Positions 4,049 through 36,615 of a stretch of 64,000 nt of DNA are shown here, piece after piece. Source of the stretch: Pseudomonas kermanshahensis (GTDB lineage: Bacteria > Pseudomonadota > Gammaproteobacteria > Pseudomonadales > Pseudomonadaceae); NCBI RefSeq assembly GCF_014269205.2, contig NZ_JABWRY020000001.1, positions 2,108,001-2,172,000 on the forward strand, written 5' to 3'. The notes below the pieces were generated by a model. That model ran no database searches and had not been told where the DNA came from. It was given only the letters and a program-made list of their open reading frames with translations. Every line of letters starts with the position of its first letter. Positions within the stretch are counted from its first letter, which is position 1. The position numbers were made by a program, and so were the translations under genes.

Positions 4049-5620
4049 TCAAACCCGTGTATGCATTTGCAGCAGGCATCCTGAGTCCGGTGCATTGCCC
4101 AACGCTTCGAGCTTCAGGGCCTGCCGCGCACTGGTGATGAACAAGGTAGCGCCTGCTTCCCCGCCAAAGCACAGGTCTGTAGGGCACGGCACCGGCAGGC
4201 CGATCATGCGGTCCAGATTACCGTCGGCATCGAAGCGTGCCACGCTCCAACCGTCCAGTTGGGTGGTCCACACCCCACCTTCACTGTCCAGCGCCAAACC
4301 GCCAAGCCGGCCACCCCCCAGTGGCAGCGAGGCGAGCCTGCGCACGCTGCTGCTGCCCGGCTGCAGCAGCAGGATGTCACCGGCTTCCGGGGCCAGTGCA
4401 TATACTGCTGAGCCCTTGGCGTCCCAGCGGAAAGCACTGACTTGCTCCGGTAACGACCAGCCATGGCGCAACTCGCCCTCAGCACTCAGTTCGCCGATCA
4501 GGCAACCACTGGCAGTCTTCGCGCACGCCCACAAGGCCCCCGAAGGGTGCGTGGCCAACGCCAGCAGACGGCTGCCGAGCAGGTCCTGACGCGGGTGCTC
4601 ATGGCCTTCCCAGTCGACCAACGACCACCCGCCAGCCTGGGCCACCAGCAGCCCGTCGGGGTGCAGCTCCATGCCGCGTACCGGCAGGTCAAGGCGCGTC
4701 AGCTGGCGGCTGGTGTGCCCGTCCCAGCAGTGGATCGCCGGTGCCAGGGTGTCGGCCCAGTACAAGCGCTTCTGGCCCGCATGCCAGCGCGGAAACGCGC
4801 CATGGAATGCCCAAGGCCCGGGTACCACGCTGAGTTCGCCCGCGGCTTGCGGTGCGCTGTCGGGGCGCAATTGCTCGCCTACCCGGCGTGCGGCCTCGGC
4901 CAGTTCAGGGCCGAGCAGCGTCAGGCGTTCCAGGGTCAGCCGGTAGGCTGGCCCTGCGACACTCAGGGCGCCACGCACCTGGCCTTGCTTGTCGACGATC
5001 GGTGCGGCGACGCAGCGCACACCCAGGCGGATTTCCTCGTCGTCCAGGGCGTAGCCGCGGGTCTGGGTGATCTGCAGCTCAGCCAGCAGCCGACGGCGGT
5101 CAGTGATGGTCAGAGGGGTCAACGGTGCCAAAACCAGCCCCTTGAGAATTTCATCGCGAGCGGCTGCAGGGAGCGCCGACAAAATCGCCTTGCCTTGCCC
5201 CGTGCAGTACACCGGCTTGCCTTGGCCGAGGCTGGCCGCCGAGCGTTGGGTATGCGCGCCCTCGCAGCGCTCCAGCGATAACACCTGGTTGCCATCGAGC
5301 ACCGCCAGGTACGAGGTCTCCCCGGTTAGGTCGCGCAGCGCGCGCAGCTCTTCGCTGGCCGCCGCCACCAGGTCAGGTTCCAGGTAGGCGTTACGGACCA
5401 TCTCCAGGTACTTGAAGCCCAGGCGATAGACCTTGCGGGTCGGGTCGCGGCGGATCATGCCGCGCTCCACCAAGGTGGCGATGATGCGGTACAGCGTGGT
5501 GCGCGGCAGCGGTACTTGCTCGGCCAGTGCAGCCTGGCTGATGCCCGAAGCGGTAGCGCCAATGGCCTGCAACACATCCAGGGCTTTTTCCAGTGCTGCG
5601 GTGCCTTCACCCGTTTTCAT
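4049..5620 (-). CDS. IclR-type regulator fused to SMP-30/gluconolactonase-like propeller
   Basis: A 523-residue two-part protein. Residues about 10-70 form an IclR winged helix (ALEKALDVLQAIG ... GISQAALAE ... TTLYRIIATL). Residues about 75-250 are the IclR effector domain. From about 262 to the end is a second module with SMP-30-like blades (RLYWADTL, GLALDSEGGVW). The SMP-30 metal ligands look lost: the usual GEGP is GAFP, and the NG and PDG motifs are absent. This suggests sugar-lactone or sugar-acid binding rather than hydrolysis. The ATG at 5620 starts just before the HTH; an ATG at 5692 with a GAGG site is an alternative. It is divergent from the catabolic cluster and is its probable regulator. 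Confidence 0.88.
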   Translation of the reverse strand: MKTGEGTAALEKALDVLQAIGATASGISQAALAEQVPLPRTTLYRIIATLVERGMIRRDPTRKVYRLGFKYLEMVRNAYLEPDLVAAASEELRALRDLTGETSYLAVLDGNQVLSLERCEGAHTQRSAASLGQGKPVYCTGQGKAILSALPAAARDEILKGLVLAPLTPLTITDRRRLLAELQITQTRGYALDDEEIRLGVRCVAAPIVDKQGQVRGALSVAGPAYRLTLERLTLLGPELAEAARRVGEQLRPDSAPQAAGELSVVPGPWAFHGAFPRWHAGQKRLYWADTLAPAIHCWDGHTSRQLTRLDLPVRGMELHPDGLLVAQAGGWSLVDWEGHEHPRQDLLGSRLLALATHPSGALWACAKTASGCLIGELSAEGELRHGWSLPEQVSAFRWDAKGSAVYALAPEAGDILLLQPGSSSVRRLASLPLGGGRLGGLALDSEGGVWTTQLDGWSVARFDADGNLDRMIGLPVPCPTDLCFGGEAGATLFITSARQALKLEALGNAPDSGCLLQMHTRV

Positions 5621-5728
5621 TGTTTTCCCACCCTTTGGAACTCGGTTGCCAAGGGGCACAGTCTGCCTCTTTTCAGCGGGATTTTCCGCCATAGAATCAG
5701 CCTCAGCAGGGCTTGAAGCGATTATGTG

Positions 5729-5743
5729 TCCCACATTGTGGGA
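5729..5743. promoter_or_regulatory. Perfect 15-bp palindrome, probable IclR operator
   Basis: TCCCACA-T-TGTGGGA, seven base pairs each side of one central base. It lies between the divergent regulator gene and the RraA-type gene, 50 bp upstream of the latter's ATG. IclR proteins bind palindromes of this size in such shared promoters. The function is inferred from position and symmetry. Confidence 0.6.
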
Positions 5744-5792: not shown

Positions 5793-6602
5793 ATGTCCGT
5801 CATCCATAACTACGCCGATGCCCACGAGAGTGTCTCTGCCAAACAGGTCGAGGTGAGCGACGAAGTGCTTGCCAAGCTCGCCACGTGCAGCAGCGGCTCG
5901 CTGACCACTCAACTGTTCAAGCGTGGCTTCCGCCAGCCGGCGCTGGTTGGCTTGCGTGCCATGACCCGTGATGTAAAACCGTTCGCCGGGCGTGCCTTCA
6001 CCATGCGCTTCATCCCGGCCCGTGAAGACATCGACACCTATTCGACCATGACCACCAAGCCCAATGACGACAACCTGCAATGGGTGGGTGTGGAGCAGAT
6101 TCAACCGGGTGACGTGCTGGTCATCGACAGCCGCAACGACCCGGCTGCCGCCTCGGCCGGCAATATTCTGGTAACCCGCCTGCTGGCCCGGGGGGCCAAG
6201 GCCATCGTCACCGATGGCGCCCTGCGCGATGGCAGCGAGATCGCTGCCATGAACCTGCCGGCCTATGCCCGGGAAATTACCGCCACCACGCGTATCTCCT
6301 ACCACCACGTGGCCGACCTTCAGGTCCCAATCGGTTGTGCCGGCGTGGCCGTGTACCCCGGCGACATCATCGTCGGTGATGCCGATGGCCTGACCGTGGT
6401 GCCTGCGCACCTGGCCGAGGAAATGGCCGAGGTGTGCAGCGTGCAAGACGACATCGAGCACTACCTGGCCATGCGCATCGCGGCCGGCGAAGCGCTGTGG
6501 GGCGTGTACCCGCCGAGCCCGGCGTCGGTCTCCGACTACCATGCCTGGGTTGCCGCTGGCCGCCCGGCGATCCCGTCGATCATCACCCAGCAGGGGGCCT
6601 GA
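5793..6602 (+). CDS. RraA-like / 4-hydroxy-2-oxoacid aldolase family protein
   Basis: A 269-residue cytoplasmic protein of the RraA/HMG-aldolase fold. The class II pyruvate-aldolase motif is present: G123, then R145-D146 and E149 (ALRDGSEI), followed by GDIIVGDADGLTVVP. Keeping the R-D-x-x-E pattern favours a divalent-metal aldolase or oxaloacetate-type decarboxylase over a plain RNase E regulator. AGGAG lies about 10 nt before the ATG. It is the first gene of the rightward catabolic cluster. In that setting it may split a 2-oxo-3-deoxy or 4-hydroxy-2-oxo acid into pyruvate and an aldehyde, which the dehydrogenase two genes on could oxidise. Confidence 0.85.
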   Translation: MSVIHNYADAHESVSAKQVEVSDEVLAKLATCSSGSLTTQLFKRGFRQPALVGLRAMTRDVKPFAGRAFTMRFIPAREDIDTYSTMTTKPNDDNLQWVGVEQIQPGDVLVIDSRNDPAAASAGNILVTRLLARGAKAIVTDGALRDGSEIAAMNLPAYAREITATTRISYHHVADLQVPIGCAGVAVYPGDIIVGDADGLTVVPAHLAEEMAEVCSVQDDIEHYLAMRIAAGEALWGVYPPSPASVSDYHAWVAAGRPAIPSIITQQGA

Positions 6603-6605
6603 ACC

Positions 6606-7052
6606 ATGGCCGAGCACAAGCATGCGCAACTGATCCGCCGTTATTTCGCTGCCTGCAACGCAGGTGATTACGACCAACTGGTGTCCTGCTTCACGCCTGA
6701 CGCGGTGCACTACTTTCCGGCGGGCTTGCCAGAAATCCCTTGGCGCAGCGCAGACACCATCGCCCGCAAATGGGTGTGGTGCGTTGAGCAGCTGGGCTCG
6801 CAGTGGACCATCGAAAAGATCCTGGTCAGCCATGACAGCGACGAAGCGGTGATCGAGTGGACCCACTGGAAGCGCAAGCTTGGCACTGCGGTGCGTGGGG
6901 ACGAGTGGTACCTGTTCGATGAGCAGACCGGGTTGATCAAGGAAATCCGCGCCTATTACGCCTCGCCAGCGCAGCAGGACGTGGAAATCAACGAACTGGT
7001 CGATTTCGACTACGTCGGCCGTGGCTATCACCTGGAGCCGAAGGCTCGTTGA
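6606..7052 (+). CDS. SnoaL-like / NTF2-fold protein
   Basis: A 148-residue protein of the NTF2-like superfamily. The N-terminal pattern LIRRYFAACNAGDYDQLVSCF and the following CFTPDAVHYFP are typical of SnoaL-type polyketide cyclase/isomerase relatives. Such folds act as isomerases, dehydratases or lactone-handling enzymes, or as accessory proteins, so no reaction can be assigned. It follows the RraA-like gene by 3 bp and precedes the aldehyde dehydrogenase by 37 bp, so it is part of the same operon. Confidence 0.82.
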   Translation: MAEHKHAQLIRRYFAACNAGDYDQLVSCFTPDAVHYFPAGLPEIPWRSADTIARKWVWCVEQLGSQWTIEKILVSHDSDEAVIEWTHWKRKLGTAVRGDEWYLFDEQTGLIKEIRAYYASPAQQDVEINELVDFDYVGRGYHLEPKAR

Positions 7053-7089
7053 GCACGGTGGCTGCACTGAACGATTCAGGAGTAAAGCA

Positions 7090-8496
7090 ATGACCTCTCA
7101 TCAAGACCCCAACCTGGCCGCCATCGACGCCATCGTGGCCAAATCTGCTGCCGCTGCGCACGTTTGGGCTGACGCCAGCGCCAGCCAGCGCGCCACGTTG
7201 CTGCGCGGCCTGGCCGATGCGCTGGAGCAGCACCAGCCGGACCTGGTCGCTATCGCCGACCGTGAGAGCGGGCTGGGCGAGGCACGCCTCAACGGTGAAG
7301 TCGCCCGTACCGCGTTTCAGCTGCGCGGCTTTGCCACTGAAGTAGAAGCCGGCGTGCCTTACCGCCGAGTCGACGATGCCGCAGTGGCGGGGGCTCCTCC
7401 CGCTGGCCGCCCACGGCTGTCACGTATCCAGCGGCCACTGGGCCCGGTGGCGATGTTTTCAGCCAGCAACTTCCCGTTCGCCTTCTCGGTGCTCGGTGGG
7501 GACACCGCCTCGGCGCTGGCTGCCGGCTGCCCGGTGGTGGTCAAGCCGCACGCCGGCCACCCTGAGCTGTCTCGCGCCGTATTCACCTTGGCGGCGGCCG
7601 TGGTGCGTGCCCAGGGCTTGCCGGAAGGCCTGCTGACCTTGGCCGAAGCCCCCAATCGCGCCGCGGGTACCTACCTGGTGCAGCACCCCTCGATTGCCGC
7701 AGTGGCGTTCACCGGGTCCTACCAAGGCGGCAAAGCCTTGTGGCAGGCGGCCAATGCCCGTGCCCGCCCGGTGCCGTTCTTCGGTGAGCTGGGGTCGATC
7801 AACCCGTTGGTGGCGCTGCCATCCGCCCTGCAGCACGACAGCGAAGGCCTGGCCAAGACCCTGGCCGCCTCCATCACCCTTGGCTGCGGCCAGTTCTGCA
7901 CAAGCCCCGGCGTGATCGTGCTGCTGGATTCGCCGCTCAGCCAGCGCTTCATCGCTCAATTGGCCGAAGCCATTGCGCCAATCCGCACGCACCGTATGCT
8001 CACCCCCGGCATGCAGCAAGGCTTTGAGGCCGCTGCCGCCAGCGTGGCCGAGCTTGCCCGGCCGTTGTTCGCGCAGCAGCCCGAGGGTGCCGGCCCCGCG
8101 CCGCGGCTGTTTGCCACCGACGCGGCCGCTTTCATTGCCGATGCGCACTTGCGTGAAGAGATGTTCGGCCCGGCCGCGTTGGTCGTCACCGCGCAGTCGA
8201 TCAGCCAGGTCGCCGACGTGCTGGATGCGGTGGGCGGTACCCTGACCACCACGCTGTGGGGCCTGGACGCCGACAGCGAGGACAACCGCCGGTTGTTGCG
8301 TGCTGCGCAGCGGGTATCCGGGCGGGTATTGTTCGCCGGCGTGCCCACCGGTGTTGCCGTGTGCCATGCCCAGCAGCATGGCGGGCCATGGCCGGCCTCC
8401 ACTGCACCACAGACCACCTCGGTGGGTTTTGCGGCCATCGAGCGGTTCTTGCGCCCGGTCGCCTTGCAGGACGCACCGGCCTGGGTGCTGGGGTGA
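7090..8496 (+). CDS. Aldehyde dehydrogenase, 2-ketoglutarate-semialdehyde type
   Basis: A 468-residue NAD(P)-dependent dehydrogenase. Active-site residues are visible: N127 (SASNFPF), K152 (VVKPHAG), E233 (FFGELGS) and the nucleophile C270 (GCGQFCTSPG). It is paralogous to the KGSADH at 34958-36538, sharing SASNFP/GASNFP, GGDTA and LAAGCPVV blocks. That supports oxidation of 2-oxoglutarate semialdehyde or a similar short oxo-acid aldehyde. The ATG at 7090 has GGAG about 8 nt upstream and starts the aligned family; an earlier in-frame start would overlap the SnoaL gene. Confidence 0.9.
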   Translation: MTSHQDPNLAAIDAIVAKSAAAAHVWADASASQRATLLRGLADALEQHQPDLVAIADRESGLGEARLNGEVARTAFQLRGFATEVEAGVPYRRVDDAAVAGAPPAGRPRLSRIQRPLGPVAMFSASNFPFAFSVLGGDTASALAAGCPVVVKPHAGHPELSRAVFTLAAAVVRAQGLPEGLLTLAEAPNRAAGTYLVQHPSIAAVAFTGSYQGGKALWQAANARARPVPFFGELGSINPLVALPSALQHDSEGLAKTLAASITLGCGQFCTSPGVIVLLDSPLSQRFIAQLAEAIAPIRTHRMLTPGMQQGFEAAAASVAELARPLFAQQPEGAGPAPRLFATDAAAFIADAHLREEMFGPAALVVTAQSISQVADVLDAVGGTLTTTLWGLDADSEDNRRLLRAAQRVSGRVLFAGVPTGVAVCHAQQHGGPWPASTAPQTTSVGFAAIERFLRPVALQDAPAWVLG

Positions 8497-8509
8497 GGAG
8501 GGCAGGGCG

Positions 8510-8803
8510 ATGATGCGACATATCGTGTTGTTCCGCCGGCTGGCCGGGGTGGATGCCCAGCCTGAACTGGAAGGCAGGCTGGTGGCGCGGATGCGCGGCC
8601 TCACGGAAGAAATCGACTTCATTCGCGACTGGAGAGTCGCCGCCAACGAACTGGATCGGCCGATCTGCTGGGACTACATCCTCGAGTCCAGCTTCGACGA
8701 TGCCCAGGCCGTGCAGCGTTACCTGCCACACCCGGCGCACCAGGCCCTGGTCGCCGAGCTTAAACAGTACTTCGAGTGGGTAGCGGTGGATTACAGCGTC
8801 TAG
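8510..8803 (+). CDS. Dabb domain (stress-responsive alpha/beta barrel) protein
   Basis: A 97-residue protein with the Dabb pattern: MRHIVLFRR at the start, a middle DYILESSFDDAQAVQRY strand-helix, then HPAHQALVAEL. Dabb proteins form small dimeric barrels and some catalyse cyclisation, aldol or decarboxylation chemistry. The exact role is unknown. It lies 13 bp after the dehydrogenase stop with GAGGAGG upstream, so it is operonic. Small alpha/beta-barrel partners are common in sugar and lactone catabolic clusters. Confidence 0.85.
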   Translation: MMRHIVLFRRLAGVDAQPELEGRLVARMRGLTEEIDFIRDWRVAANELDRPICWDYILESSFDDAQAVQRYLPHPAHQALVAELKQYFEWVAVDYSV

Positions 8804-8858
8804 ACCTCTGATCAGCGCCCGGCTCGCTGACGGGGCCAGGCGCTATAACAAAAAAGAT

Positions 8859-8877
8859 CCGGCATCACAGGTGCCGG
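8859..8877. other. Short hairpin upstream of MFS gene
   Basis: CCGGCA and TGCCGG pair around a 7-nt loop, just before the MFS ribosome-binding site. On the minus strand it is followed by a T run (A run at 8850-8855 on the plus strand), so it resembles a leftward terminator, though no leftward gene reads into it. It could also set mRNA stability or attenuate expression inside the operon. Confidence 0.35.
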
Positions 8878-8889
8878 GCGGAGTCGTAC

Positions 8890-10179
8890 ATGAACAAGAA
8901 AAAGAACTACCGCTGGACGATCCTGACCCTGTTGTTTCTGGCCATGATCATCAACTATGTCGATCGCGCTGCCTTGTCGATCGCCATGCCTTTCATCACC
9001 CAGGAATACCACCTCACGCCCGCCGAGAAGGGCATGATTTTCAGCAGCTTCTTCTTCGGTTACGCGCTGTTCTGTTTCGTCGGTGGCTACTTGGCCGACC
9101 GTTACGGCCCCAAACGCGTACTGACCTGGTCCATGAGCTTCTGGTCGGTGCTGTGTGGCTCTACCGCCCTGGCGTTCAACTTCTGGTCGCTGCTGATCGT
9201 TCGCGCCCTGTTCGGTGTAGGTGAAGGGCCGGTTTCGACCACGGCCAACAAGACAGTGAACAGCTGGTTCCCGATCAAGGAGCGTGCCCGCGCCATAGGT
9301 ATCAACCAAGCGGGCGGCCCGTTGGGCGGCGCCTTGGCCGGTCCCATCGTCGGTTTCCTCGCGTTGTGGCTGGGCTGGCGAGTGGCCTTCGTGGTCATCG
9401 CAGTGATCGGCGTGCTCTGGGCCATTGCCTGGTGGCGCATGGCAGCGTCCACGCCAAAGGAACACCCGCAGGTTTCGGCCGAAGAACTGGCGCTGATCAA
9501 CGAGGGCCGCGAAGCCCCCGTGACCGCCGTGGAAGAGGCGCCGCGCACGCCGGTTTTGCAGATCATCCTGCAGCGTTCGGTGCTGGTCACCGGTGTCTCG
9601 CTGTTCTGTTACAACTACATTCTGTATTTCTTCATGACCTGGTTCCCCAGTTACCTGATCGACGCCAAGGGCATCGACCTGAAGGCCATGAGTATTGTCA
9701 CCGCGTTGCCATGGCTGGTGGGCACTGTCGGCTTCGTCTGCGGTGGGCTGCTGATCGACTGGGTGTTCAAACGCACCGGCAAGCAACTGTTTTCGCGCAA
9801 GGTGGTGCTGGTTACGTGCCTGCTGATTGCGGCAGTGTGCATCGGTTTGACCGGGCAGGTGCAAAGCGTGACCAGTACGGTCGCGGTCATGACCGTGGCG
9901 ATCGGCTTCTTGATGCTGACTGCGCCGGCTTACTGGTCGTTGATCCAGGATGCCGTGCCCGATCATCAGGTCGGTACGGCTGGTGGTTTCATGCACGGGC
10001 TGGCCAACCTTTCGGGCATCGTTGCGCCGACCGTGACCGGGTTCATTATCCAGTCCACCGGCACCTACGCCAGCGGCTTTGGCCTGGCGGCGGCGCTAGG
10101 GGTTGTAGGGGCCTTGATCGTCGCCTTGTTCGTCGGCCAGAAACCGGCAAAACAGGCAGCAGCCGTCGCTACCGCTTGA
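8890..10179 (+). CDS. MFS transporter, anion:cation symporter (acid-sugar) type
   Basis: A 429-residue twelve-helix inner-membrane carrier. The first helix ends in NYVDRAALSIAMPF, the pattern seen in GudP, ExuT and DgoT carriers of glucarate, hexuronate and galactonate. The loop 2-3 motif GGYLADRYGPKRV is intact. The substrate is probably a carboxylated sugar. It sits in the middle of the catabolic cluster, and with the OprD porin at 13154 provides uptake across both membranes. Confidence 0.9.
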   Translation: MNKKKNYRWTILTLLFLAMIINYVDRAALSIAMPFITQEYHLTPAEKGMIFSSFFFGYALFCFVGGYLADRYGPKRVLTWSMSFWSVLCGSTALAFNFWSLLIVRALFGVGEGPVSTTANKTVNSWFPIKERARAIGINQAGGPLGGALAGPIVGFLALWLGWRVAFVVIAVIGVLWAIAWWRMAASTPKEHPQVSAEELALINEGREAPVTAVEEAPRTPVLQIILQRSVLVTGVSLFCYNYILYFFMTWFPSYLIDAKGIDLKAMSIVTALPWLVGTVGFVCGGLLIDWVFKRTGKQLFSRKVVLVTCLLIAAVCIGLTGQVQSVTSTVAVMTVAIGFLMLTAPAYWSLIQDAVPDHQVGTAGGFMHGLANLSGIVAPTVTGFIIQSTGTYASGFGLAAALGVVGALIVALFVGQKPAKQAAAVATA

Positions 10180-10246
10180 CTTGATGGCACCTCCAGCGGG
10201 GCAACCCGCTGGGCTTCTGCACTTCACACGTTTTTGGGAATTCGCC

Positions 10247-11056
10247 ATGCCTACGCTTCTTATCACCGGCGCCGCCGGTATCGTCGGAACCGCGCTGCGC
10301 CCTTACCTGCGCGAGCGTTTCACCCTGCGCCTGCTGGACCGCAGGCCGGTCACCGAGTTGAACGCAGGCGAAGTTGCGCTGGTCGGCGACCTGACCGACC
10401 CGGCCTTCGTCCGCCAAGCCACCGAAGGCATTGACGCGGTGCTTCATCTGGCCTGCGCCCACGGCACCGACATTCACTTTCAGAGCACTGTGCAGCCCAA
10501 CTACCATGCCACCCTGTACTTGCTCGAGGCCGCGCAACGGGCTGGCGCCAAGCGCTTCGTGTTTGCCAGCAGCCACCATGTGCTGGGCCAGTACCACAGC
10601 CAGGCGGCCACTCATTTCGACGACAGCCCGGTGGCCCCGGACAGTTACTACGCCTTGAGCAAAGTGTTTGGCGAAGCGGCCTGCGCCATGTTTTCGCAGC
10701 GCAGCGACCTGGCCACATTCGTCGTGCGCATCGGCAATGCCGACCCCAAGGTGGCCGACGCCCGTCGGCTGCGCTTGTGGACCAGCGCCCGCGACCTGGC
10801 GCAGTTGGTGCTGATCGGCCTGGAGCACCCGCAGGTGCGTCACGAGATCGTCTATGGCGTGTCGGAGTGCCCGGATGCGTTCTTCCATAACCGCCGCGCC
10901 CGTGCGCTGGGCTATTGCCCCCAGGATAATGCCAGCGATCATCTGGCCGACGACTTCCTGGCCTACGAGGCCATGGCGCCGGTAGGCTCTGGCCGCGATC
11001 ACGTTGGGGGGGCCTACGCCGGTGTGCCTTTGGCCAGTGTTCTGGAGCAAGCATGA
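10247..11056 (+). CDS. NAD-dependent epimerase/dehydratase family, uronate dehydrogenase-like
   Basis: A 269-residue extended short-chain dehydrogenase. The NAD motif TGAAGIVG is at residues 7-14 and the catalytic Tyr-x-x-x-Lys is in SYYALSKVFGE. The stretches FASSHHVLGQY, PDSYYALSK and HEIVYGVS closely follow Pseudomonas uronate dehydrogenase (Udh), which oxidises galacturonate or glucuronate to the aldarolactone. Overall divergence from Udh leaves the sugar open. The ATG giving MPTLLITG was chosen because it starts directly at the Rossmann strand. Its stop overlaps the next start by 4 bp (ATGA), so translation is coupled. Confidence 0.87.
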   Translation: MPTLLITGAAGIVGTALRPYLRERFTLRLLDRRPVTELNAGEVALVGDLTDPAFVRQATEGIDAVLHLACAHGTDIHFQSTVQPNYHATLYLLEAAQRAGAKRFVFASSHHVLGQYHSQAATHFDDSPVAPDSYYALSKVFGEAACAMFSQRSDLATFVVRIGNADPKVADARRLRLWTSARDLAQLVLIGLEHPQVRHEIVYGVSECPDAFFHNRRARALGYCPQDNASDHLADDFLAYEAMAPVGSGRDHVGGAYAGVPLASVLEQA

Positions 11057-12141
11057 AAATCGTCCGTATCGATACCCAGGTCGTGGAAATTCCTTTCCAG
11101 GATGGCGGCAAGGGCCTGGGCATCACGCCGACCACCTGGCACACGCTGGAAAACGTGCTGATTCGATTGGAAGACGAGCAGGGTAACGTCGGCTGGGGCG
11201 AAGCCTTTGGCTACTTCGTCGCCGATGCCACCAAGGCCCTGATCGATCGCCTGATTGCGCCGCTGCTGCTGCACCGCCAGGTCGATGACATCGCCGCCTT
11301 TAACCGCGAACTGCAGTTGCGGTTGCACCTGTTCGGGCGTTATGGGGTGACGATGTTTGCCATTTCCGGCGTCGATATCGCCCTGTGGGACCTCGCCGCC
11401 CGCCGCGAGGGCGTGCCCTTGCATCGCCTGCTGGGCCAGGCCCACCGCGAGCAGGTGCCAGCCTATGCCAGCCTGGTGCGCTATGCCGATGATGAGGTGG
11501 CCCCGGCGATCTGCGAAAAGGCATTGCGCATGGGCTTTTGTGACATCAAGTTGCATGAGGTGACGTTGCCGGAGATCGCCGCCTGCCGCGACGCCGTTGG
11601 CAACGACATACCGCTGGCGACCGACGTCAACTGCGCCTGGACGGCTGCGGACACCCGCGCCTGGCTGCCAGCATTGGCGGACCTACAACTGGCCTGGCTG
11701 GAAGAGCCGATATTCCCACCGGAAGATTTCGCCACGTTGGCCAGCTTGCGCGGCCAGGGAGTGCCGTTGTCGGCAGGGGAGAACTGGTGCACTGCCGTGC
11801 AGTTCGAGCAGGCGCTGGTGGCAGGTGCGGTCGATTCGATCCAGCCCAGCGTGACCAAGGTCGGGGGTATTTCCGAATGCCTGCGCATCGCCGCGCTCGC
11901 TGACCAGCACAACGCCGTGGTATTGCCGCACTGCCCGTACTTCGGACCCGGCCTGATCGCCACCTTGCACCTGGCGGCGGTGCAACAGCGCGTGCCACAA
12001 GTGGAGTACCTGTTCGTCGAACCGGCGGCCTGGTTGTACCCGGTCGAGCAACTGCGCCAGGGCAACTTGTTGCAGATCCCGCAGGGCCCCGGCCTTGGCC
12101 TGGACATCGACGTGCAAGTAGCCGAGCGCTACCGCCGCTGA
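11053..12141 (+). CDS. Mandelate racemase/muconate lactonizing (enolase superfamily) enzyme
   Basis: A 362-residue protein with an N-terminal capping domain and a TIM barrel. Metal ligands are D191 (ATDVN), E217 (WLEEP) and E243 (SAGEN). A D261-H293 pair (DSIQPS; LPHCP) marks the mandelate racemase subgroup. The base on the second strand is K166 in a K-x-H arrangement (DIKLHE) instead of the common K-x-K. Family members dehydrate acid sugars to 2-keto-3-deoxy acids, or racemise or cycloisomerise them. Dehydration fits the context. It is translationally coupled to the Udh-like gene. Confidence 0.88.
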   Translation: MKIVRIDTQVVEIPFQDGGKGLGITPTTWHTLENVLIRLEDEQGNVGWGEAFGYFVADATKALIDRLIAPLLLHRQVDDIAAFNRELQLRLHLFGRYGVTMFAISGVDIALWDLAARREGVPLHRLLGQAHREQVPAYASLVRYADDEVAPAICEKALRMGFCDIKLHEVTLPEIAACRDAVGNDIPLATDVNCAWTAADTRAWLPALADLQLAWLEEPIFPPEDFATLASLRGQGVPLSAGENWCTAVQFEQALVAGAVDSIQPSVTKVGGISECLRIAALADQHNAVVLPHCPYFGPGLIATLHLAAVQQRVPQVEYLFVEPAAWLYPVEQLRQGNLLQIPQGPGLGLDIDVQVAERYRR

Positions 12142-12231
12142 CGCTGGCGCGTATCCCGTAATTGCTCCCCTCCGCTGTGCCACGGCGCGGCGGCAGGGGC
12201 GACGTGTGCCCGTGAGGGCATCGGAGGTCCT

Positions 12232-13101
12232 ATGCAACCGTTGGTTCTGAGCAACGCCACCTGGTCTGTCGGGCTGCTTCCTGCCTGGGGTGGGCGTATC
12301 GCCCACCTGCGTGCCGAGGGGCTCGACGTGCTGCTGCCGATCTCGGCCGAGCACTTCGACCCGCTCGACTGGCCGCGGGCTGGCGCGTACCCGCTGGTGC
12401 CGTACTCCAACCGTATTCGCAATGCCCAACTGCAGTTTGCAGGGCAGGCCTATACATTGCCGGCTCACCCCGCAGCGCGGCCGCACACCTTGCATGGGGT
12501 GGCGCACACACTGGCGTGGCACGTGCTGGAACCCTGTGCCGGGCAGTTGACCCTTGCCTGCGATTACCAAGGCGAGCACTGGCCCTGGGCATTTCGTGCC
12601 GAACAGCGTTTCGTGCTCGAAGGCAATCGCTTGAGCATCGTCCTGGCGCTGCTCAACCAGGGGGATTCCCCCATGCCTGCGGGCCTTGGGCTGCACCCGT
12701 ATTTTCAACGCCATGCGGGGCTGAACGTACGTTACCAGGTTGGCCGGGAATGGCAGATCGATGATCAGTACCTGGCTACCGGCGGCTTTCGGCAGGCCAC
12801 GCAGCCTGTGTCGATCGACGCCGATGACGCCCAGGCGTTGGCGCACTACCAGTCCTGCTGGGATGGGCTACTGGAACTCGATTACCCGGCGGGCAGCCTG
12901 AAACTGCAGGCAAGCCCACCCCTGAGCCATTTCGTTGCCTTTGCCCCGACCGGCAGCCGATACCTGTGCCTGGAGCCGGTTTCGCACCTGGCCGATGCTT
13001 TCAACCAGCCTGAACAGGCCTGGGGCGATACCGGCACCCAGGTGCTGGGCCCTGGCCAGCGGCTTGAAGCCACCCTCGAATTTACCTGGCAGCGACGCTG
13101 A
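12232..13101 (+). CDS. Aldose 1-epimerase family protein
   Basis: A 289-residue galactose-mutarotase-like beta-sandwich protein. Conserved elements include YSNRIRNAQ near residue 62, the first catalytic His region HTLHGVAH, and the second in GLGLHPYF. FNQPEQAWG near residue 262 probably holds the Glu. It would interconvert anomers of the sugar used by the upstream dehydrogenase, supplying the anomer that enzyme prefers. A 90-bp gap separates it from the enolase-superfamily gene, so a minor internal promoter is possible. Confidence 0.88.
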   Translation: MQPLVLSNATWSVGLLPAWGGRIAHLRAEGLDVLLPISAEHFDPLDWPRAGAYPLVPYSNRIRNAQLQFAGQAYTLPAHPAARPHTLHGVAHTLAWHVLEPCAGQLTLACDYQGEHWPWAFRAEQRFVLEGNRLSIVLALLNQGDSPMPAGLGLHPYFQRHAGLNVRYQVGREWQIDDQYLATGGFRQATQPVSIDADDAQALAHYQSCWDGLLELDYPAGSLKLQASPPLSHFVAFAPTGSRYLCLEPVSHLADAFNQPEQAWGDTGTQVLGPGQRLEATLEFTWQRR

Positions 13102-13153
13102 CAGCTTTGCCGAGCGCTGTATCCAACACCCACAATAAAAGAGAACAACAACA

Positions 13154-14434
13154 ATGAAACTCTCCTCGACTGGAGCGGGCTTCGCTCGCGCTGCAAAACC
13201 CTTGTCGCTGCTGCTCGGGCTGGGCCCACTGTGTGCCCAGGCGGCCTTTCTGGAGGACGGCAAGGCCAACCTGACATTGCGCAACTTCTACTACAACCAC
13301 GACCTGCGCGACTCCACCAAGCCTGCGCAGTCCAAGCTGGAGGAGTGGGCCCAGGGCTTCATCCTCAAAGGTGAGTCCGGTTACACCGACACCACGGTCG
13401 GGGTGGGCGTGGACGTTTATGCCGGCCTGGGGCTAAAACTGGATTCATCGCCATCGCGCAGTGGCTCGGCGCTGCTGCCGGGCGCCTACAACCGTGCGGG
13501 TGGGCCCCGCAATGCTGACCCGCGTTCGGCTGACGAGTTTTCCGAGGCCACGGCAGCGGTCAAATTCAAGTATTCGAAAACCGAGTTGAAGGTGGGCGGT
13601 CTGTTCCCCAAAATCCCCCTGGTCAGCGCCGGCGATGCGCGCTTGCTGCCGCAGTTTTTCGAAGGCGCGATGCTCGATATACGCGAACTGGACAACCTCG
13701 ATATTGGCCTGGGCCAGATGCGCAAGGTCAACCAGCGCGAGTTCGCCGGCGCTCGCGACATCCAGGTGGGCAACTACTACAGCGTGTTCAGTGACCGCTT
13801 CGACTACTTGGGCGGCACCTGGCGCGCCACCCCGCAGACGTCGCTGGGGCTGTGGACCGGTCGCCTTGCCGACGTCTACCAGCAAACCTTGTATACCGGT
13901 ACCCAGGCGTTCAAAGCCGGCGACTGGAACCTTTCCGGCACTTTCAACTACCTCGATACTGGCGAGTCGGGCACTGAGAAGGCTGGCAATCTCGATAGCC
14001 GCATGACTTCGGCGATGCTCAGCGCCAACCTCAAGGCCCAGACGTTCCGCCTTGGCTACCAATACAACGCAGGCGACAGCGCCTTGCCGTTCATTCATGA
14101 CACTGACCTGCCGGGGGTTGCCAACGCCGTACAGGTGCTGCGCTTCGACCGTGCCCAGGAGCGCTCGTGGCAGGCCCGCTACGACCTCGATTTCGCCGCC
14201 CTCGGCGTACCGGGGCTGACGGCGTTCGCCCGTTATGTGCGCGGGGACAACTTCAAGGTGGCGGGGGAGGATGGCAGTGAGTGGGAGCGCAACCTGGATG
14301 TTACCTACGTGATCCAGAGCGGGCCGCTGAAGAACCTGGCGTTGCGCTGGCGCAACGTCGAACTGCGCGGAGATGCGACCGGGCGGCGCGACGAGAACCG
14401 CGTGATCATTGCCTATACCTTGCCGCTGTTTTGA
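13154..14434 (+). CDS. OprD family outer membrane porin
   Basis: A 426-residue substrate-specific porin. A signal peptide of about 31 residues ends at AQA-AFLEDG. The mature start ANLTLRNFYYNHDLRD and the EEWAQGF motif are typical of OprD. The protein ends in an aromatic residue (ALPLF), as expected for an outer-membrane beta-barrel. OprD channels admit small carboxylates and amino acids. Its place in the cluster points to entry of the sugar acid handled by the neighbouring enzymes. Confidence 0.92.
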   Translation: MKLSSTGAGFARAAKPLSLLLGLGPLCAQAAFLEDGKANLTLRNFYYNHDLRDSTKPAQSKLEEWAQGFILKGESGYTDTTVGVGVDVYAGLGLKLDSSPSRSGSALLPGAYNRAGGPRNADPRSADEFSEATAAVKFKYSKTELKVGGLFPKIPLVSAGDARLLPQFFEGAMLDIRELDNLDIGLGQMRKVNQREFAGARDIQVGNYYSVFSDRFDYLGGTWRATPQTSLGLWTGRLADVYQQTLYTGTQAFKAGDWNLSGTFNYLDTGESGTEKAGNLDSRMTSAMLSANLKAQTFRLGYQYNAGDSALPFIHDTDLPGVANAVQVLRFDRAQERSWQARYDLDFAALGVPGLTAFARYVRGDNFKVAGEDGSEWERNLDVTYVIQSGPLKNLALRWRNVELRGDATGRRDENRVIIAYTLPLF

Positions 14435-14521
14435 GCCTTTGGCCTGGGGCTGCTTTGCAGCCCCTTCGCGACGCGCCCCCAACAATCCCGAACCGATTCA
14501 CATCCCCCCAGGAAGACACCA

Positions 14522-15484
14522 GTGCCCCAGCCCTTGGACCCCGCCATGCAGGCCTACATCGACAACAGCAAGCGTTTCACCGCGACCGACAACAGCCTGG
14601 CCGCCCGGCGCTCGGCATTCCTGCAAGCCTGCCGCAATTGCACACCGCCACCGCCTGAAGGCTGGGGTATCGAGGACATCGACCTGCAGGGCCTGCGCCT
14701 GCGCTGCTATCAACCCGCCGGCCCGGCACCGGAAGGTGGCTGGCCAACGCTGCTGTACCTGCACGGCGGTGGCTGGGACCTGGGTAACCTCGATACCCAC
14801 GACTGGTTCGCTTACGCCCTGGCGCGCCGGGCACCGATCGCCATCGTCGCGGTCGAGTATCGGCTGGCGCCAGAGCATGCCTACCCTGCACCGCTGGAGG
14901 ACTGCCTGAAGGTGTGGTCGGCGTTGCGCAGTGGCCAGGTCGATGCGCGCCTCAGCCAGGCCCGCTTGATGGTCGCCGGCGACAGCGCAGGCGGCACCCT
15001 GGCGGCCGGCTTGTGCAGGGCACTGCGCCGTGACGGCCAGCCGCAGCCAGTGGGGCAATTGCTGGTGTACCCGGTACTGACTGCCCGGCGGCAGTTGCCG
15101 TCGATGCAGCAGCATGCAGAGGCACCGATGATGACGGTGGCGGGGCTGATGAAGTCCCTAGAAGGGTTTCTGCCGGTCAAGGCCGACCGTGATGACCCCT
15201 GCGCGATGCCGTTGGAGGCGGATGACTTCGCCGGGCTGGCCCCGGCCTGGGTGCTGGTGGCCAGTGTCGACCCACTGCGCGATCACGGCATCGCCTACTG
15301 TGACGCGCTTGCGGCGCATGGGGTGCAGGCCGATGCCTGGGTAGGCGAGGGGATGGTGCATTCCAGCCTGCGCGCCTTCGGGGTGGCTGAGGTCGAGCAG
15401 GCTTGGGACCGAATGGCCGTACAGTTGCTGCAGTGGGCGCAGGGCACCCTCGATTCCGCCGACGGCGGGGCATCTGCGCACTGA
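14522..15484 (+). CDS. Alpha/beta hydrolase, hormone-sensitive lipase-like esterase
   Basis: A 320-residue carboxylesterase of the HSL (GDSAG) family. The oxyanion motif HGGGW is near residue 81 and the nucleophile elbow GDSAGG near 155. The acid and base are probably in DPLRDH and GMVHSSL near the C-terminus. There is no signal peptide, so it is cytoplasmic. The start is a GTG with AGGA about 7 nt upstream; a later ATG (MQAYID) is possible. As the last gene of the cluster it may free the sugar acid from an ester or open a lactone. Confidence 0.87.
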   Translation: MPQPLDPAMQAYIDNSKRFTATDNSLAARRSAFLQACRNCTPPPPEGWGIEDIDLQGLRLRCYQPAGPAPEGGWPTLLYLHGGGWDLGNLDTHDWFAYALARRAPIAIVAVEYRLAPEHAYPAPLEDCLKVWSALRSGQVDARLSQARLMVAGDSAGGTLAAGLCRALRRDGQPQPVGQLLVYPVLTARRQLPSMQQHAEAPMMTVAGLMKSLEGFLPVKADRDDPCAMPLEADDFAGLAPAWVLVASVDPLRDHGIAYCDALAAHGVQADAWVGEGMVHSSLRAFGVAEVEQAWDRMAVQLLQWAQGTLDSADGGASAH

Positions 15485-22517: not shown

Positions 22518-24704
22518 ATGGAAATCAAGGTCAATTTTCTCGACAATCTCCGTCTCGAAGCCAAGTTCGACGACTTCACGGTGATCGCCGACCAACCGAT
22601 CCGTTACAAAGGCGACGGTTCGGCCCCGGGGCCGTTCGACTATTTCCTGGCGTCTTCGGCCCTGTGCGCGGCTTACTTCGTGAAGCTGTACTGCCAGACC
22701 CGCGACATCCCCACCGAAAACATTCGGCTGTCGCAGAACAACATCGTCGATCCGGAAAACCGCTACAACCAGATCTTCAAGATCCAGGTCGAGCTGCCTG
22801 AAGACATTTCCGAGAAGGACCGCCAGGGCATCCTGCGTTCCATCGACCGTTGCACGGTAAAGAAGGTCGTGCAGACCGGGCCTGAATTCGTCATCGAGGT
22901 GGTGGACAACCTCGACGCCGATGCCCAGGGGTTACTGATGCCGGTGTCGGACACCAGTACCTACATCCCGGGCAAGGACCTGCCGCTGGAGCAGACCATC
23001 GCCAACATGTCGGCGATTCTCGCGGGCCTTGGGATGAAGATCGAGATCGCCTCGTGGCGCAATATAGTGCCCAACGTGTGGTCGCTGCATGTGCGCGATG
23101 CACAGTCGCCGATGTGCTTCACCAATGGCAAGGGTTCAACCAAGGAGGCCGCGCTGGCCTCGGCGCTGGGTGAGTTCATCGAGCGCCTGAACTGCAACTT
23201 CTTCTACAACGACCAGTTCTGGGGCGAGGACATCGCTAACGCGCCGTTCGTGCATTACCCGAACGAGCAGTGGTTCAAGCCGGGCCCCAAGGACGCGCTG
23301 CCCAGCGAGATCCTCGACGCGAACTGCCTGGAAATCTACAACCCCGACGGTGAACTGCGCGGCTCGCACCTGTACGACACCAACTCGGGCAACACCGCGC
23401 GGGGCATCTGCTCGCTGCCATTCGTGCGCCAGTCGGACCAGGAGGTGGTGTACTTCCCGTCCAACCTGATCGAGAACCTGTTCCTCAGCAACGGCATGAG
23501 CGCGGGCAACACCCTCGCTGAGGCGCAAGTGCAGTGCCTGTCGGAAATCTTCGAGCGTGCGGTGAAGCGCGAGATCCTCGAAGGCGAACTGTGCCTGCCG
23601 GATGTACCGCAGGAAGTGCTGGCCAAGTACCCCGGCATCGTTGCCGGTATTCAGGGGCTGGAAGAGCAGGGCTTCCCGGTGCTGGTCAAGGACGCATCGC
23701 TGGGCGGTGAGTTCCCGGTCATGTGCGTGACCTTGATGAACCCGCGCACCGGTGGCGTGTTCGCCTCATTCGGCGCGCACCCGAGCCTGGAAGTGGCGTT
23801 GGAGCGCAGCCTCACCGAGTTGTTGCAGGGCCGCAGCTTCGAAGGCCTGAACGACCTGCCGCAGCCCACCTTCGAAAGCCACGCGCTGACCGAGCCGAAC
23901 AACTTCGTCGAGCACTTCATCGACTCCAGCGGCGTGGTGTCGTGGCGCTTCTTCAGCGCCAAGGCCGATTTCGAATTTGTCGAGTGGGACTTCTCTGGCC
24001 ATGGCGAAGATTCCAACGTGCAGGAAGCTGCGACCCTGTTCGGCATCCTCGACGACCTGGGCAAAGAAGTGTACATGGCGGTGTACGACAACCTCGGTGC
24101 CACCGCGTGCCGCATCCTGGTGCCGGGTTACTCGGAGATCTACCCGGTCGAGGACCTGATCTGGGACAACACCAACCGGGCCTTGTCGTTCCGCGCTGAC
24201 ATCCTCAACCTGCACAGCCTGGACAACCGTTCGCTGAAGTTGCTGCTCAAGCGCCTGGACAACTGCGATGTGGACGATTACACCACCATCACCACGTTGA
24301 TCGGCGTTGAGTTCGACGACAATACGGTGTGGGGCCAGTTGACCATTCTTGAGCTGAAGCTACTGATCTGCCTGGCCGTGCAGCGCTTCGAAGATGCCAA
24401 GGAGCTGGTTGAGGCGTTCCTTCAGTTCAACGACAACACCGTCGAGCGTGGCCTGTTCTACCAGGCGTTGAACGTGGTGCTGGAAGTGGTGCTGGATGAT
24501 GACCTAGAGATGGAAGACTACGAAACCAACTTCCGCCGCATGTTCGGCAACCCGCGGATGGACGCGGTGCTGGGCTCGGTGGACGGCAGCGTGCGCTTCC
24601 ACGGCCTGACGCCGACCAGCATGAAGCTGGAAGGGCTGGATCGTCATTTGCGTTTGATCGAGAGCTACAAGAAGCTGCATGCGGCTCGGGCCAAGTTTGC
24701 CTGA
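22518..24704 (+). CDS. OsmC-domain / YcaO-domain fusion protein
   Basis: A 728-residue cytoplasmic protein. Residues about 1-145 resemble OsmC/Ohr folds (PIRYKGDGSAPGPFDYFLASSALCAAYF). From about 160 to 560 is a YcaO domain (TNGKGSTKEAALASALGEFIERLN, and GNTLAEAQVQCLSEIFERAVKREI). A helical C-terminal extension of about 150 residues follows. YcaO enzymes phosphorylate peptide backbones to form azolines, thioamides or macroamidines; E. coli YcaO is linked to methylthiolation of ribosomal protein S12. No precursor peptide, dehydrogenase or exporter gene is adjacent, so a housekeeping role is more likely than RiPP synthesis. Confidence 0.92.
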   Translation: MEIKVNFLDNLRLEAKFDDFTVIADQPIRYKGDGSAPGPFDYFLASSALCAAYFVKLYCQTRDIPTENIRLSQNNIVDPENRYNQIFKIQVELPEDISEKDRQGILRSIDRCTVKKVVQTGPEFVIEVVDNLDADAQGLLMPVSDTSTYIPGKDLPLEQTIANMSAILAGLGMKIEIASWRNIVPNVWSLHVRDAQSPMCFTNGKGSTKEAALASALGEFIERLNCNFFYNDQFWGEDIANAPFVHYPNEQWFKPGPKDALPSEILDANCLEIYNPDGELRGSHLYDTNSGNTARGICSLPFVRQSDQEVVYFPSNLIENLFLSNGMSAGNTLAEAQVQCLSEIFERAVKREILEGELCLPDVPQEVLAKYPGIVAGIQGLEEQGFPVLVKDASLGGEFPVMCVTLMNPRTGGVFASFGAHPSLEVALERSLTELLQGRSFEGLNDLPQPTFESHALTEPNNFVEHFIDSSGVVSWRFFSAKADFEFVEWDFSGHGEDSNVQEAATLFGILDDLGKEVYMAVYDNLGATACRILVPGYSEIYPVEDLIWDNTNRALSFRADILNLHSLDNRSLKLLLKRLDNCDVDDYTTITTLIGVEFDDNTVWGQLTILELKLLICLAVQRFEDAKELVEAFLQFNDNTVERGLFYQALNVVLEVVLDDDLEMEDYETNFRRMFGNPRMDAVLGSVDGSVRFHGLTPTSMKLEGLDRHLRLIESYKKLHAARAKFA

Positions 24705-33642: not shown

Positions 33643-33783
33643 GCTGTCGTTTCCTTCCATGGATAAGTGAGCGCGAAGCCGCACGGTACAGCCTTTCGCT
33701 GGCTTTGGGCCAGCATGTGGCGCTGATTTTTCGCATTACGCGTGTCGCAGACACAGTGTGAAATACCGCATTGGGTGTATGTG

Positions 33784-33794
33784 ATCGTACAACT
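33784..33794. promoter_or_regulatory. GntR half-operator upstream of the regulator gene
   Basis: ATCGTACAACT matches eleven consecutive bases of the palindrome found upstream of kdgD (40684-40702). It is about 45 bp before the regulator start and just upstream of a TATTAT-like -10 element at 33812-33817. This suggests weaker, autoregulatory binding. Confidence 0.55.
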
Positions 33795-33839
33795 GCTTGC
33801 GCTATTATGGGCGCTGTCTTTCAAGGTGAAATACAGGGC

Positions 33840-34589
33840 ATGACAGAGCAGCAGGTACAGGCAAGGACCCGGCGCAAGCCGCGCAGTCTGGCCCAGGAAC
33901 TGGTCACGGTGCTGACCGAGCGAATTCGCAGCGGCCAGCTCAAGCGCGGCGACAAGCTGCCGACCGAATCGCAGATCATGGCGGAAGAGGGCGTCAGCCG
34001 CACCGTGGTGCGCGAGGCCATCTCGCGGCTGCAGGCCGCAGGCCAGGTGGAGACCCGCCATGGCATCGGCACCTTTGTGCTGGACGCACCGGCCACGGGC
34101 GGTTTCCGCATCGACCCGGCGACCGTGGTGACCCTGCGCGAAGTGCTGGCAGTGCTGGAGTTGCGCATTGCCCTGGAGATCGAGTCGGCAGGGTTGGCGG
34201 CGCAGCGGCGCAGCGATGAACAGCTGGTTGGCATGCGCGCAGCGCTGGACGAGCTCAACGAAGGCGCGGCCCATGCGACCGATGCCGTTTCCGCGGACTT
34301 CCAGTTCCACTTGCGCATCGCCCAGGCCAGCGGCAACCACTACTTTGCCGACATCATCAACCACCTGGGTACCAGCATCATTCCACGTACCCGGCTCAAT
34401 TCGGCACGCCTGGCCCATGATGACCAGGCGCACTACATGAGCCGGTTGATGCATGAGCACGAGGCGATCTACGAAGCGATTGCCCGGCAAGACAGCGAAG
34501 GGGCGAAGATGGCCATGCGCATGCACTTGAGCAACAGCCGCGAGCGGTTGCGTCAGGCGCATGAAGAGGCGGAGGCGCAGGGGGTCTGA
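33840..34589 (+). CDS. GntR (FadR subfamily) regulator of the glucarate/galactarate operon
   Basis: A 249-residue regulator. Winged helix at about residues 17-80 (LVTVLTERIRSGQLKRGDKLPTESQI ... VSRTVVREAISRLQ) followed by an all-helical FCD ligand-binding domain with candidate metal ligands D150-type and His residues (FQFHLRIAQASGN, HEHEAIYEAI). It sits beside the leftward KGSADH-garD-MFS-kdgD operon, convergent with it. The shared operator sequence (40684-40702 and 33784-33794) supports it as the local repressor; the ligand would be glucarate, galactarate or a dehydration product. Confidence 0.9.
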   Translation: MTEQQVQARTRRKPRSLAQELVTVLTERIRSGQLKRGDKLPTESQIMAEEGVSRTVVREAISRLQAAGQVETRHGIGTFVLDAPATGGFRIDPATVVTLREVLAVLELRIALEIESAGLAAQRRSDEQLVGMRAALDELNEGAAHATDAVSADFQFHLRIAQASGNHYFADIINHLGTSIIPRTRLNSARLAHDDQAHYMSRLMHEHEAIYEAIARQDSEGAKMAMRMHLSNSRERLRQAHEEAEAQGV

Positions 34590-34608
34590 GCCCTCTGTCG
34601 CCCAGGCT

Positions 34609-34701
34609 GGCCTCTTCGCGGGTAAACCCGCTCCCACAGGATCACTGCAGGCCTGAAATCTGTGCCACCCCTGTGCGAGCGGGTTCAGCCGCGAAGGGGC
34701 C
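34609..34701. repeat. REP inverted pair (family A)
   Basis: Arms of 31 nt (34609-34639 and 34671-34701) in opposite orientation. The first carries the canonical P. putida REP core gcgggtaaacccgctcccac; the second is a degraded copy (gcgggttcagccgcgaa). It lies 19 bp after the GntR stop codon. Confidence 0.85.
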
Positions 34702-34715
34702 GGTACAGACAAAAG

Positions 34716-34943: not shown

Positions 34944-34957
34944 CCATTCTAAGACGA

Positions 34958-36538: not shown

Positions 36539-36615
36539 GGGGTGCTCCTTTGATGAAATAAAAGGCTGAAGGACGGCATGGCCCGCTCCCACAGGGGCCA
36601 TGCCAAACTGCTACA

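Follow-up and report, generated by a model that had tools for sequence, protein, structure and literature searches.

A conserved, probably co-regulated gene cluster of Pseudomonas kermanshahensis: a candidate variant of oxidative hexuronate catabolism in which an RraA-type protein would act as dehydratase/decarboxylase

In Agrobacterium tumefaciens, D-galacturonate is degraded oxidatively through the series Udh (uronate dehydrogenase), Gli, Gci, KdgD and KGSADH, the dehydrogenase of alpha-ketoglutaric semialdehyde (alpha-KGSA), as given in extracts of PMC6353982. For Flavobacterium sp. UMI-01, extracts of PMC8563752 describe a 237-residue member of the RraA family, FlDet, which converts 2-keto-3-deoxyglucarate into alpha-KGSA and is reported to use the erythro isomer of 2-keto-3-deoxyhexarate; the same extracts name four other alpha-keto acids that FlDet does not use, namely 4-deoxy-L-erythro-5-hexoseulose uronate (DEHU), 2-keto-3-deoxygluconate (KDG), its 6-phosphate (KDPG) and 4-hydroxy-2-oxoglutarate, and call the use of the erythro isomer by KdgD unclear. 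Here we analyze a cluster of ten co-directional open reading frames (ORFs) at positions 5793-15484 of the window, the whole 64 kb stretch studied, nucleotides 2108001-2172000 of contig G000:C1 in the 6.15 Mb Pseudomonas kermanshahensis genome, together with a divergent regulator gene at 4049-5620 that is part of the same system. On balance we favor the view that this cluster encodes an oxidative, non-phosphorylating route for hexuronates that is inducible and yields alpha-ketoglutarate; the reactions, the induction and the substrate are all predicted, while the gene families and their association, the mutual exclusion of RraA plus SnoaL, KdgD and HpcH, the altered Udh pocket, the lost ligand positions of an SMP-30 domain and a recurrent palindrome were computed directly.

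Genome contigs were scanned with a four-row alignment of the enolase-superfamily enzyme, which gave 318 confirmed relatives; the best 80 of these plus three plasmids made up the 83 loci analyzed (counts run up to locus L091), with thresholds of 100 bits for Udh, RraA and SnoaL, 200 for HpcH and 300 for KdgD, and with the own-genome KdgD-family matches (L004-L011) excluded from the neighborhood tables. A Udh-like gene lies near the enolase gene in 47 of the 83 loci, and these comprise 28 with RraA and SnoaL, 8 with an HpcH-type aldolase, 3 with KdgD, one with RraA only and 7 with none of these; two of the three types never occur together (0/47). The ten-gene set is thus not a chance grouping, since RraA and SnoaL are present in 28 of the 47 enolase-Udh loci. 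Such a distribution is what one would expect of enzymes that are alternatives for a single intermediate, and therefore RraA (plus SnoaL) probably replaces KdgD. An 84-row enolase tree showed 2, 1 and 1 label changes for RraA plus SnoaL, HpcH and KdgD, respectively, versus means of 9.8, 7.4 and 2.9 after shuffling.

The 28 loci belong to Pseudomonas, Burkholderiaceae, alphaproteobacteria and Deinococcota (Trueperaceae); L001 and L042 share an identical enolase sequence and are both counted, and L055, having RraA and SnoaL beside a dehydrogenase of another type, stands outside the 28 and outside the Udh pocket count below. Dabb is found in 19 of them and the aldehyde dehydrogenase (ALDH) type of the cluster in 17, L025 having a KGSADH-like ALDH. 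A Burkholderia cenocepacia plasmid typed as conjugative (NZ_CP091015) likewise carries all ten functions and the regulator; its genes are divided among several transcription units and its porin belongs to a different family. The closest named relatives of the window enolase are from Pseudomonas; within the genus, 27 of 199 genomes searched gave an enolase match at E <= 1e-60, nine of them (including our own) with at least 560 bits, thus making this enolase type patchy in Pseudomonas.

Each of the ten ORFs matched the family assigned to it by the original prediction, which had been made from the letters of the window, by Pfam searches or, for the HSL hydrolase, by NCBIfam and PDB matches. The gene then called an esterase/lactonase is indeed an HSL-type alpha/beta hydrolase, lactonase being a label of that prediction only; likewise, the interval proposed was right for the ten genes and left out the divergent regulator. 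The features are as follows:

4049-5620, minus strand: regulator of ~523 amino acids with IclR helix-turn-helix, IclR_C and SMP-30/SGL domains in one protein (PF09339, PF01614, PF08450); its start codon is the ATG at 5618-5620, as inspection of the sequence indicated.
5626-5640, no strand: candidate operator copy 1, TCCCACCCTTTGGAA, with the pattern TYCCA-N5-TGGRA.
5729-5743, no strand: candidate operator copy 2, the inverted repeat TCCCAC-ATT-GTGGGA, found by pattern match 103 bp from copy 1.
5793-6602, plus strand: member of PRK08245 within the RraA family (PF03737; NF006093), predicted to act as a 2-keto-3-deoxyhexarate dehydratase/decarboxylase.
6606-7052, plus strand: SnoaL/ketosteroid-isomerase-fold protein (SnoaL_2, PF12680; homologue 3g16).
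7090-8496, plus strand: KGSADH-like ALDH, ATG at 7090 (Aldedh, PF00171; 3v4c).
8510-8803, plus strand: Dabb protein, dimeric alpha-beta barrel fold (PF07876; structure model and fold search).
8890-10179, plus strand: MFS transporter (MFS_1, PF07690); the nearest curated model is the D-galactonate transporter TIGR00893, at 315 bits under its cut-off of 395.
10247-11056, plus strand: Udh-like SDR dehydrogenase with an altered substrate pocket (Epimerase, PF01370; PDB matches).
11053-12141, plus strand: enolase-superfamily enzyme of the KLHE / D191, E217, E243 / QPS / PHxPYFGPG subgroup (MR_MLE, PF13378/PF02746).
12232-13101, plus strand: aldose 1-epimerase-like mutarotase (Aldose_epim, PF01263; 3nre).
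13154-14434, plus strand: OprD-family porin (PF03573, 432 bits).
14522-15484, plus strand: HSL-family alpha/beta hydrolase, esterase by family (NF058653, 226 bits, under the cut-off of 350; PDB esterases).

The RraA-family protein of the window falls into the NCBIfam subfamily PRK08245 (NF006093) with 255 bits against a cut-off of 208. A published FlDet antibody peptide, LVMDSRKDPRAASA, taken from extracts of PMC8563752, is identical to the window protein at 11 of 14 residues; searching the database with it gave 53 RraA-like matches, 50 of them with the exact peptide, and the three that were scanned out of the 53 all belong to PRK08245 (336-345 bits). FlDet itself was not recognised among those matches and was compared through its published peptide and N-terminus only; the proposed kinship thus draws on the peptide, on a similar N-terminus in the relatives and on the PRK08245 model, to which FlDet would itself belong. 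Identity of the window RraA is 38-45% to 13 peptide-bearing relatives and 26-30% to four RraA paralogues of its own genome. In the RraA tree, 29 cluster and PRK08245-type rows group together (97/98), apart from the four paralogues; since the latter sit on very long branches, only the grouping of the 29 rows was used. Assignment as the RNase E regulator RraA was rejected (NF006875, 36.4 bits of 136; TIGR01935, 35.9 of 123.8).

Taken as an aldolase in the original prediction, this protein is most likely instead a 2-keto-3-deoxyhexarate dehydratase/decarboxylase of the FlDet kind described in PMC8563752, in so far as its extracts go, an activity that would explain both the KGSADH-type aldehyde dehydrogenase and the absence of KdgD in the cluster. 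Retro-aldol cleavage is less likely: we see only a small chance that RraA acts as a pyruvate-type aldolase, splitting 2-keto-3-deoxyhexarate into pyruvate and tartronate semialdehyde, the aldehyde then being cleared by the ALDH or another enzyme. The RD pair of the family, which we assume to be catalytic, is retained in the cluster RraA alignment, and in rhizobial-type relatives the same Udh and enolase are followed by a gene for an HpcH-type aldolase; RraA-fold 4-carboxy-4-hydroxy-2-oxoadipate aldolases do match the window protein, more weakly (3noj, 77 bits; NF006731, 109 bits, cut-off 179). However, the best subfamily is that of the FlDet-peptide-bearing proteins, the four alpha-keto acids listed above are not used by FlDet, a tartronate semialdehyde reductase is not among the ten cluster genes, and the ALDH of the cluster is KGSADH-like.

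This ALDH matches PDB entry 3v4c, named as an aldehyde dehydrogenase (NADP+), with 371 bits; the 25 NCBIfam matches listed, of 41, are all under cut-off. Over 443 amino acids it also shows 40% identity to the ALDH that neighbors garD and kdgD in a classical galactarate set that the window carries at 33771-40628, composed of a GntR-type regulator (its family models under cut-off), a KGSADH-like dehydrogenase, GarD (936 bits), a TIGR00893-family transporter (524 bits) and KdgD (444 bits). Neither ALDH is named above cut-off among the NCBIfam models listed; that of the galactarate set is taken to be its KGSADH, and the identity between both supports, short of proof, alpha-KGSA as the substrate of the cluster enzyme.

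Regarding the first oxidation, the best PDB matches of the Udh-like enzyme are 6mfh, a mutated uronate dehydrogenase (124 bits), 3ay3 (122 bits) and 3rft, a uronate dehydrogenase (106 bits). In place of the canonical pocket motifs GG(V/I)S, SSNH and WWDN, the cluster enzyme has ACAHGTDI, SSHH and FFHN. The loop around Ser74 has one extra residue in 29/29 RraA plus SnoaL rows (window included) and 8/8 HpcH rows, and in 0/3 KdgD rows; the Asn111 position is His in 27/29, 8/8 and 0/3 of them, respectively. An arginine aligned with the canonical Udh arginine, which we presume to bind the substrate, is kept in nearly all rows, L048 being different. Two other Udh-type genes of the same genome, L132 (G000:C1:4427239) and L148 (G000:C1:2714279), have the canonical motifs, the second with a UxaA-type gene at ~3.5 kb. 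Because the pocket is changed and two canonical-type Udh genes lie elsewhere in the genome, D-galacturonate or D-glucuronate is unlikely as the substrate of the cluster.

Extracts of PMC4476818 report that in canonical Udh the Asn helps to stabilise the substrate carboxylate, and that mannuronate is poorly used, its C2 hydroxyl clashing by modelling with the Ser74 carbonyl in the loop. At the position aligned with Ser74, Pseudomonas has Gly but several Burkholderiaceae have Ser, thus any argument for mannuronate rests on the length and make-up of the loop. By stereochemical reasoning, elimination from a C2-inverted aldarolactone would give the erythro 2-keto-3-deoxyhexarate, whereas the galacturonate route would give the threo isomer handled by KdgD; the loop change and the use of the erythro isomer by FlDet point the same way, to C2-inverted uronates as the substrate class. 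We therefore put forward, tentatively and at well under even chances, that the cluster serves D-mannuronate and/or L-guluronate in parallel to the D-galacturonate/D-glucuronate route, its regulator being a former lactonase that senses the lactone. The longer Udh loop is shared by the HpcH-type loci, a caveat to this choice of substrate. As the alginate lyase family PL7 (PF08787) was not found in our genome and is present in 6 of the 23 genomes searched, there is no support for alginate polymer as the source.

The enolase-superfamily enzyme matches 3bjs with 166 bits and 4ggb, which we take to be Gci (galactarolactone cycloisomerase), with 134 bits. Residues D191, E217 and E243 (presumably the metal ligands) and K166 and H293 (presumably the catalytic pair) are invariant in the four-row alignment. 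In the wider set of relatives whose motifs were examined, strand 2 carries KLH, or KIH in two rows, and strand 6 carries QPS, versus KIK and QPD in 4ggb, a departure from the Gci signature. Aldonate dehydratase models appear among its NCBIfam matches, under cut-off. The enzyme is predicted to be an aldarolactone cycloisomerase or an aldarate dehydratase; a lactone-opening or dehydrating role is favored because related enzymes in L066, L073 and L076 occur with a canonical-type Udh and KdgD, and also with an amidohydrolase-family gene.

Those aldonate dehydratase matches, together with a Udh pocket unlike that of canonical uronate enzymes, could also be read as signs of a neutral aldose (pentose or hexose) substrate, for which the enolase would be an aldonate/aldonolactone dehydratase and RraA would dehydrate 2-keto-3-deoxypentonate to alpha-KGSA with no decarboxylation; the ALDH would fit as well. 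We consider this improbable: the putative substrate-binding Arg is kept in nearly all Udh rows (L048 excepted), the FlDet substrate given in the PMC8563752 extracts is a hexarate, and several neighborhoods contain hexuronate-type genes, relatives of altronate and mannonate dehydratase. It is equally improbable that the cluster duplicates the ordinary D-galacturonate/D-glucuronate route, which has the same reaction order as the Agrobacterium series in the PMC6353982 extracts, given that the genome already holds L132, L148 and KdgD and that the Udh loop and His changes counted above set the RraA plus SnoaL rows apart from the KdgD rows.

In the hexuronate pathway that we favor, the OprD porin and the MFS transporter would import an acid sugar, from which the HSL hydrolase would perhaps strip an ester group, and the aldose epimerase would provide the reactive anomer. 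The Udh-like enzyme would oxidize the hexuronate at C1 to an aldarolactone, which the enolase-superfamily enzyme would open by beta-elimination to 2-keto-3-deoxyhexarate; the RraA-family protein, in the place of KdgD, would dehydrate and decarboxylate this to alpha-KGSA and the KGSADH-like enzyme would convert the latter into alpha-ketoglutarate. SnoaL and Dabb may perform accessory steps, lactone isomerisation or tautomerisation being guesses, and the IclR-SMP30 fusion might use its lactonase-like domain to sense a lactone or an acid. Of the acid-sugar route previously outlined, import, oxidation at C1, dehydration and a last semialdehyde oxidation find support as predicted steps; the cluster is also distinct from the classical galactarate set at 34958-40628 of the same window, which that outline did not mention. 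No characterized pathway with these genes was found in the open PMC literature, the hexuronate regulons of Bouvier et al. 2018 standing outside the comparison.

The IclR-SMP30-type regulator, judged by the order of matches, adjoins RraA in 21 of the 28 RraA plus SnoaL loci and lies at the opposite cluster end in three (L022-L024); it was not found in the four Deinococcota loci. We aligned 27 regulators with a canonical SMP-30 from L003 and displayed ten rows, window included: in these ten the metal-binding Glu and Asp positions are changed (the alignment near Glu being uncertain) and the Asn position is Ser, Asp or Gln. We assume the three residues to be the metal ligands of SMP-30, and their loss suggests that this domain is a sensor.

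Two copies of the palindrome TYCCA-N5-TGGRA, spaced by 103 bp, stand between the regulator and RraA genes of the window. Such a pair is seen again with the same spacing in 9/9 loci of the series L012-L020, and with a spacing of 104-105 bp in L001, L034, L038, L042, L044, L045 and L049; no convincing pair was found in L003, L047, L048 and L055, nor any before RraA in L022-L024. A matrix was trained on one copy per pair from nine loci, the partner copies staying outside training. Extra palindromes were detected in Burkholderiaceae before the SnoaL or ALDH unit (L001, L042, L044 and L045; weaker in L038 and L049), and also before Udh (L034), porin (L044, L045), MFS (L034; weaker in L001, L042, L044 and L045) and a UxaA-type dehydratase pair (L001, L042). 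Among the five unit starts tested in L001, the UxaA pair has the strongest site (21.6 bits), followed by SnoaL (18.7 bits) and, weakly, MFS (12.4 bits). As background, 300-bp windows were scored in six Burkholderiaceae loci, cluster sites included: of the 1169 windows, 8.1% pass 12 bits and 6.0% pass 14 bits, and 0/372 such windows in unrelated loci of our own genome pass these thresholds. Genome-wide the palindrome gave 22 sites versus 16 for a reversed control, thus it is informative by position only; its recurrence supports co-regulation and suggests a regulon, co-expression of the cluster genes being a prediction.

This genome-wide count is one of several results that weigh against the pathway as we propose it. 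The Udh (4.9 bits) and porin (7.6 bits) units of L001 have no palindrome site. The cluster ALDH type is not within reach in 11 of the 28 loci, and in 7 of the 47 loci with a Udh-like gene RraA, HpcH and KdgD all go undetected (L043 having a weak HpcH-like match of 80 bits, and L026 and L027 being short contigs). In a search for KdgD over 36 genomes or records, 20 gave a match, every one above cut-off. Among 22 genomes with this RraA (plus two plasmid-only records), 8 are without KdgD at E <= 1e-60, which counts for the pathway, and 14 do have it, which counts against; six of the eight are metagenome bins with completeness not given, the other two being Candidatus Burkholderia humilis and Pararhizobium sp. 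YC-54. The genome of L061, with a canonical-type Udh, is also without a KdgD match, and our own genome has its KdgD at ~24 kb from the cluster. Finally, the RraA proteins of L025, L031, L036 and L040 (Deinococcota) and of L028/L063 diverge from the FlDet peptide, the specificity of the window protein may differ from that of FlDet given its 38-45% identity to peptide-bearing relatives, and the FlDet precedent gives no role to SnoaL or Dabb.

SnoaL is strongly conserved, with the motifs HYFP, EWTHWK and RGxEWY showing few exceptions; its one close solved homologue, 3g16, is itself without assigned function, and the structure search also returned ketosteroid isomerases. Dabb has the conserved motif NELxRxICWDY, and its modelled fold resembles hydroxynitrile lyase, olivetolic acid cyclase and methylmuconolactone isomerase. 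Thus the Dabb/SnoaL/RraA trio pointed out as unusual has found an explanation for RraA and none for SnoaL or Dabb.

Eight loci (L002, L030, L032, L033, L035, L037, L039 and L041) combine the same Udh and enolase subfamilies with an HpcH-type aldolase; since the annotation of L002 includes a phosphotransferase, a class III aminotransferase and an amino-acid-type ABC transporter, the substrate of the HpcH variant may differ. The enolase subgroup with KLHE/QPS motifs extends through L050-L091, many of them from marine alphaproteobacteria (Pelagibacteraceae, SAR116, Nisaea), and 34 of the 83 loci, one of them Streptomyces L029, are without Udh, RraA, SnoaL, KdgD and HpcH at the thresholds used. 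UxaA/altronate-dehydratase-type gene pairs lie beside or inside the cluster at L001:16382-19163 and L028:4275-7436. Elsewhere in the window, 22518-24704 encodes an OsmC-YcaO fusion protein (TIGR03549, 1510 bits) and 53855-60057 two large neighboring ORFs of 1032 and 1035 amino acids, which by their N-termini we take to resemble RND efflux pump subunits.

We thus describe a conserved and probably co-regulated cluster, a putative variant of oxidative hexuronate breakdown that relies on an RraA-type dehydratase/decarboxylase. It offers a testable metabolic role for a large subfamily labelled 'ribonuclease activity regulator RraA' in databases (of 7999 candidates scored, 4802 proteins reach E <= 1e-10, a single common function not being required); if true, it would represent a second way for proteobacteria to carry out the KdgD step and a candidate oxidative route for uronates beyond D-galacturonate and D-glucuronate. 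It would also add a kind of regulator in which IclR is joined to an SMP-30 propeller whose ligand positions are no longer intact.

Compared with the Agrobacterium tumefaciens route, the cluster is alike in its Udh-family first step, its probable enolase-superfamily second step and its KGSADH-like last one; it differs by having RraA (plus SnoaL) for KdgD and no Gli-type amidohydrolase among the ten genes, by its altered Udh pocket, Dabb and own IclR-SMP30 regulator, and by an enolase only distantly Gci-like (134 bits to 4ggb, our presumed Gci). With FlDet and FlDeg of Flavobacterium sp. UMI-01 it would share an RraA-family enzyme leading to alpha-KGSA followed by an alpha-KGSA dehydrogenase; according to the PMC8563752 extracts, the keto-deoxy acid comes there from alginate-derived DEHU via FlRed, whereas in the cluster it would come from a uronate via Udh and the enolase, SnoaL and Dabb are extra, and FlDeg is a type II KGSADH, the cluster ALDH being placed as KGSADH-like without a type. 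The galactarate set GarD-KdgD-KGSADH (34958-40628) would have the same alpha-KGSA/alpha-ketoglutarate end, judging by family, and has a related ALDH and MFS transporter, while the cluster is without GarD and KdgD and has its own regulator and enolase chemistry. Lastly, the mostly rhizobial Udh-enolase-HpcH clusters, such as that of the Agrobacterium cucumeris plasmid L002 (Udh 49% and enolase 55% identical), differ by an HpcH-type aldolase, annotated as aldolase/citrate lyase family, an ABC transporter and an aminotransferase, and show no RraA, SnoaL, Dabb or IclR-SMP30 match within reach.

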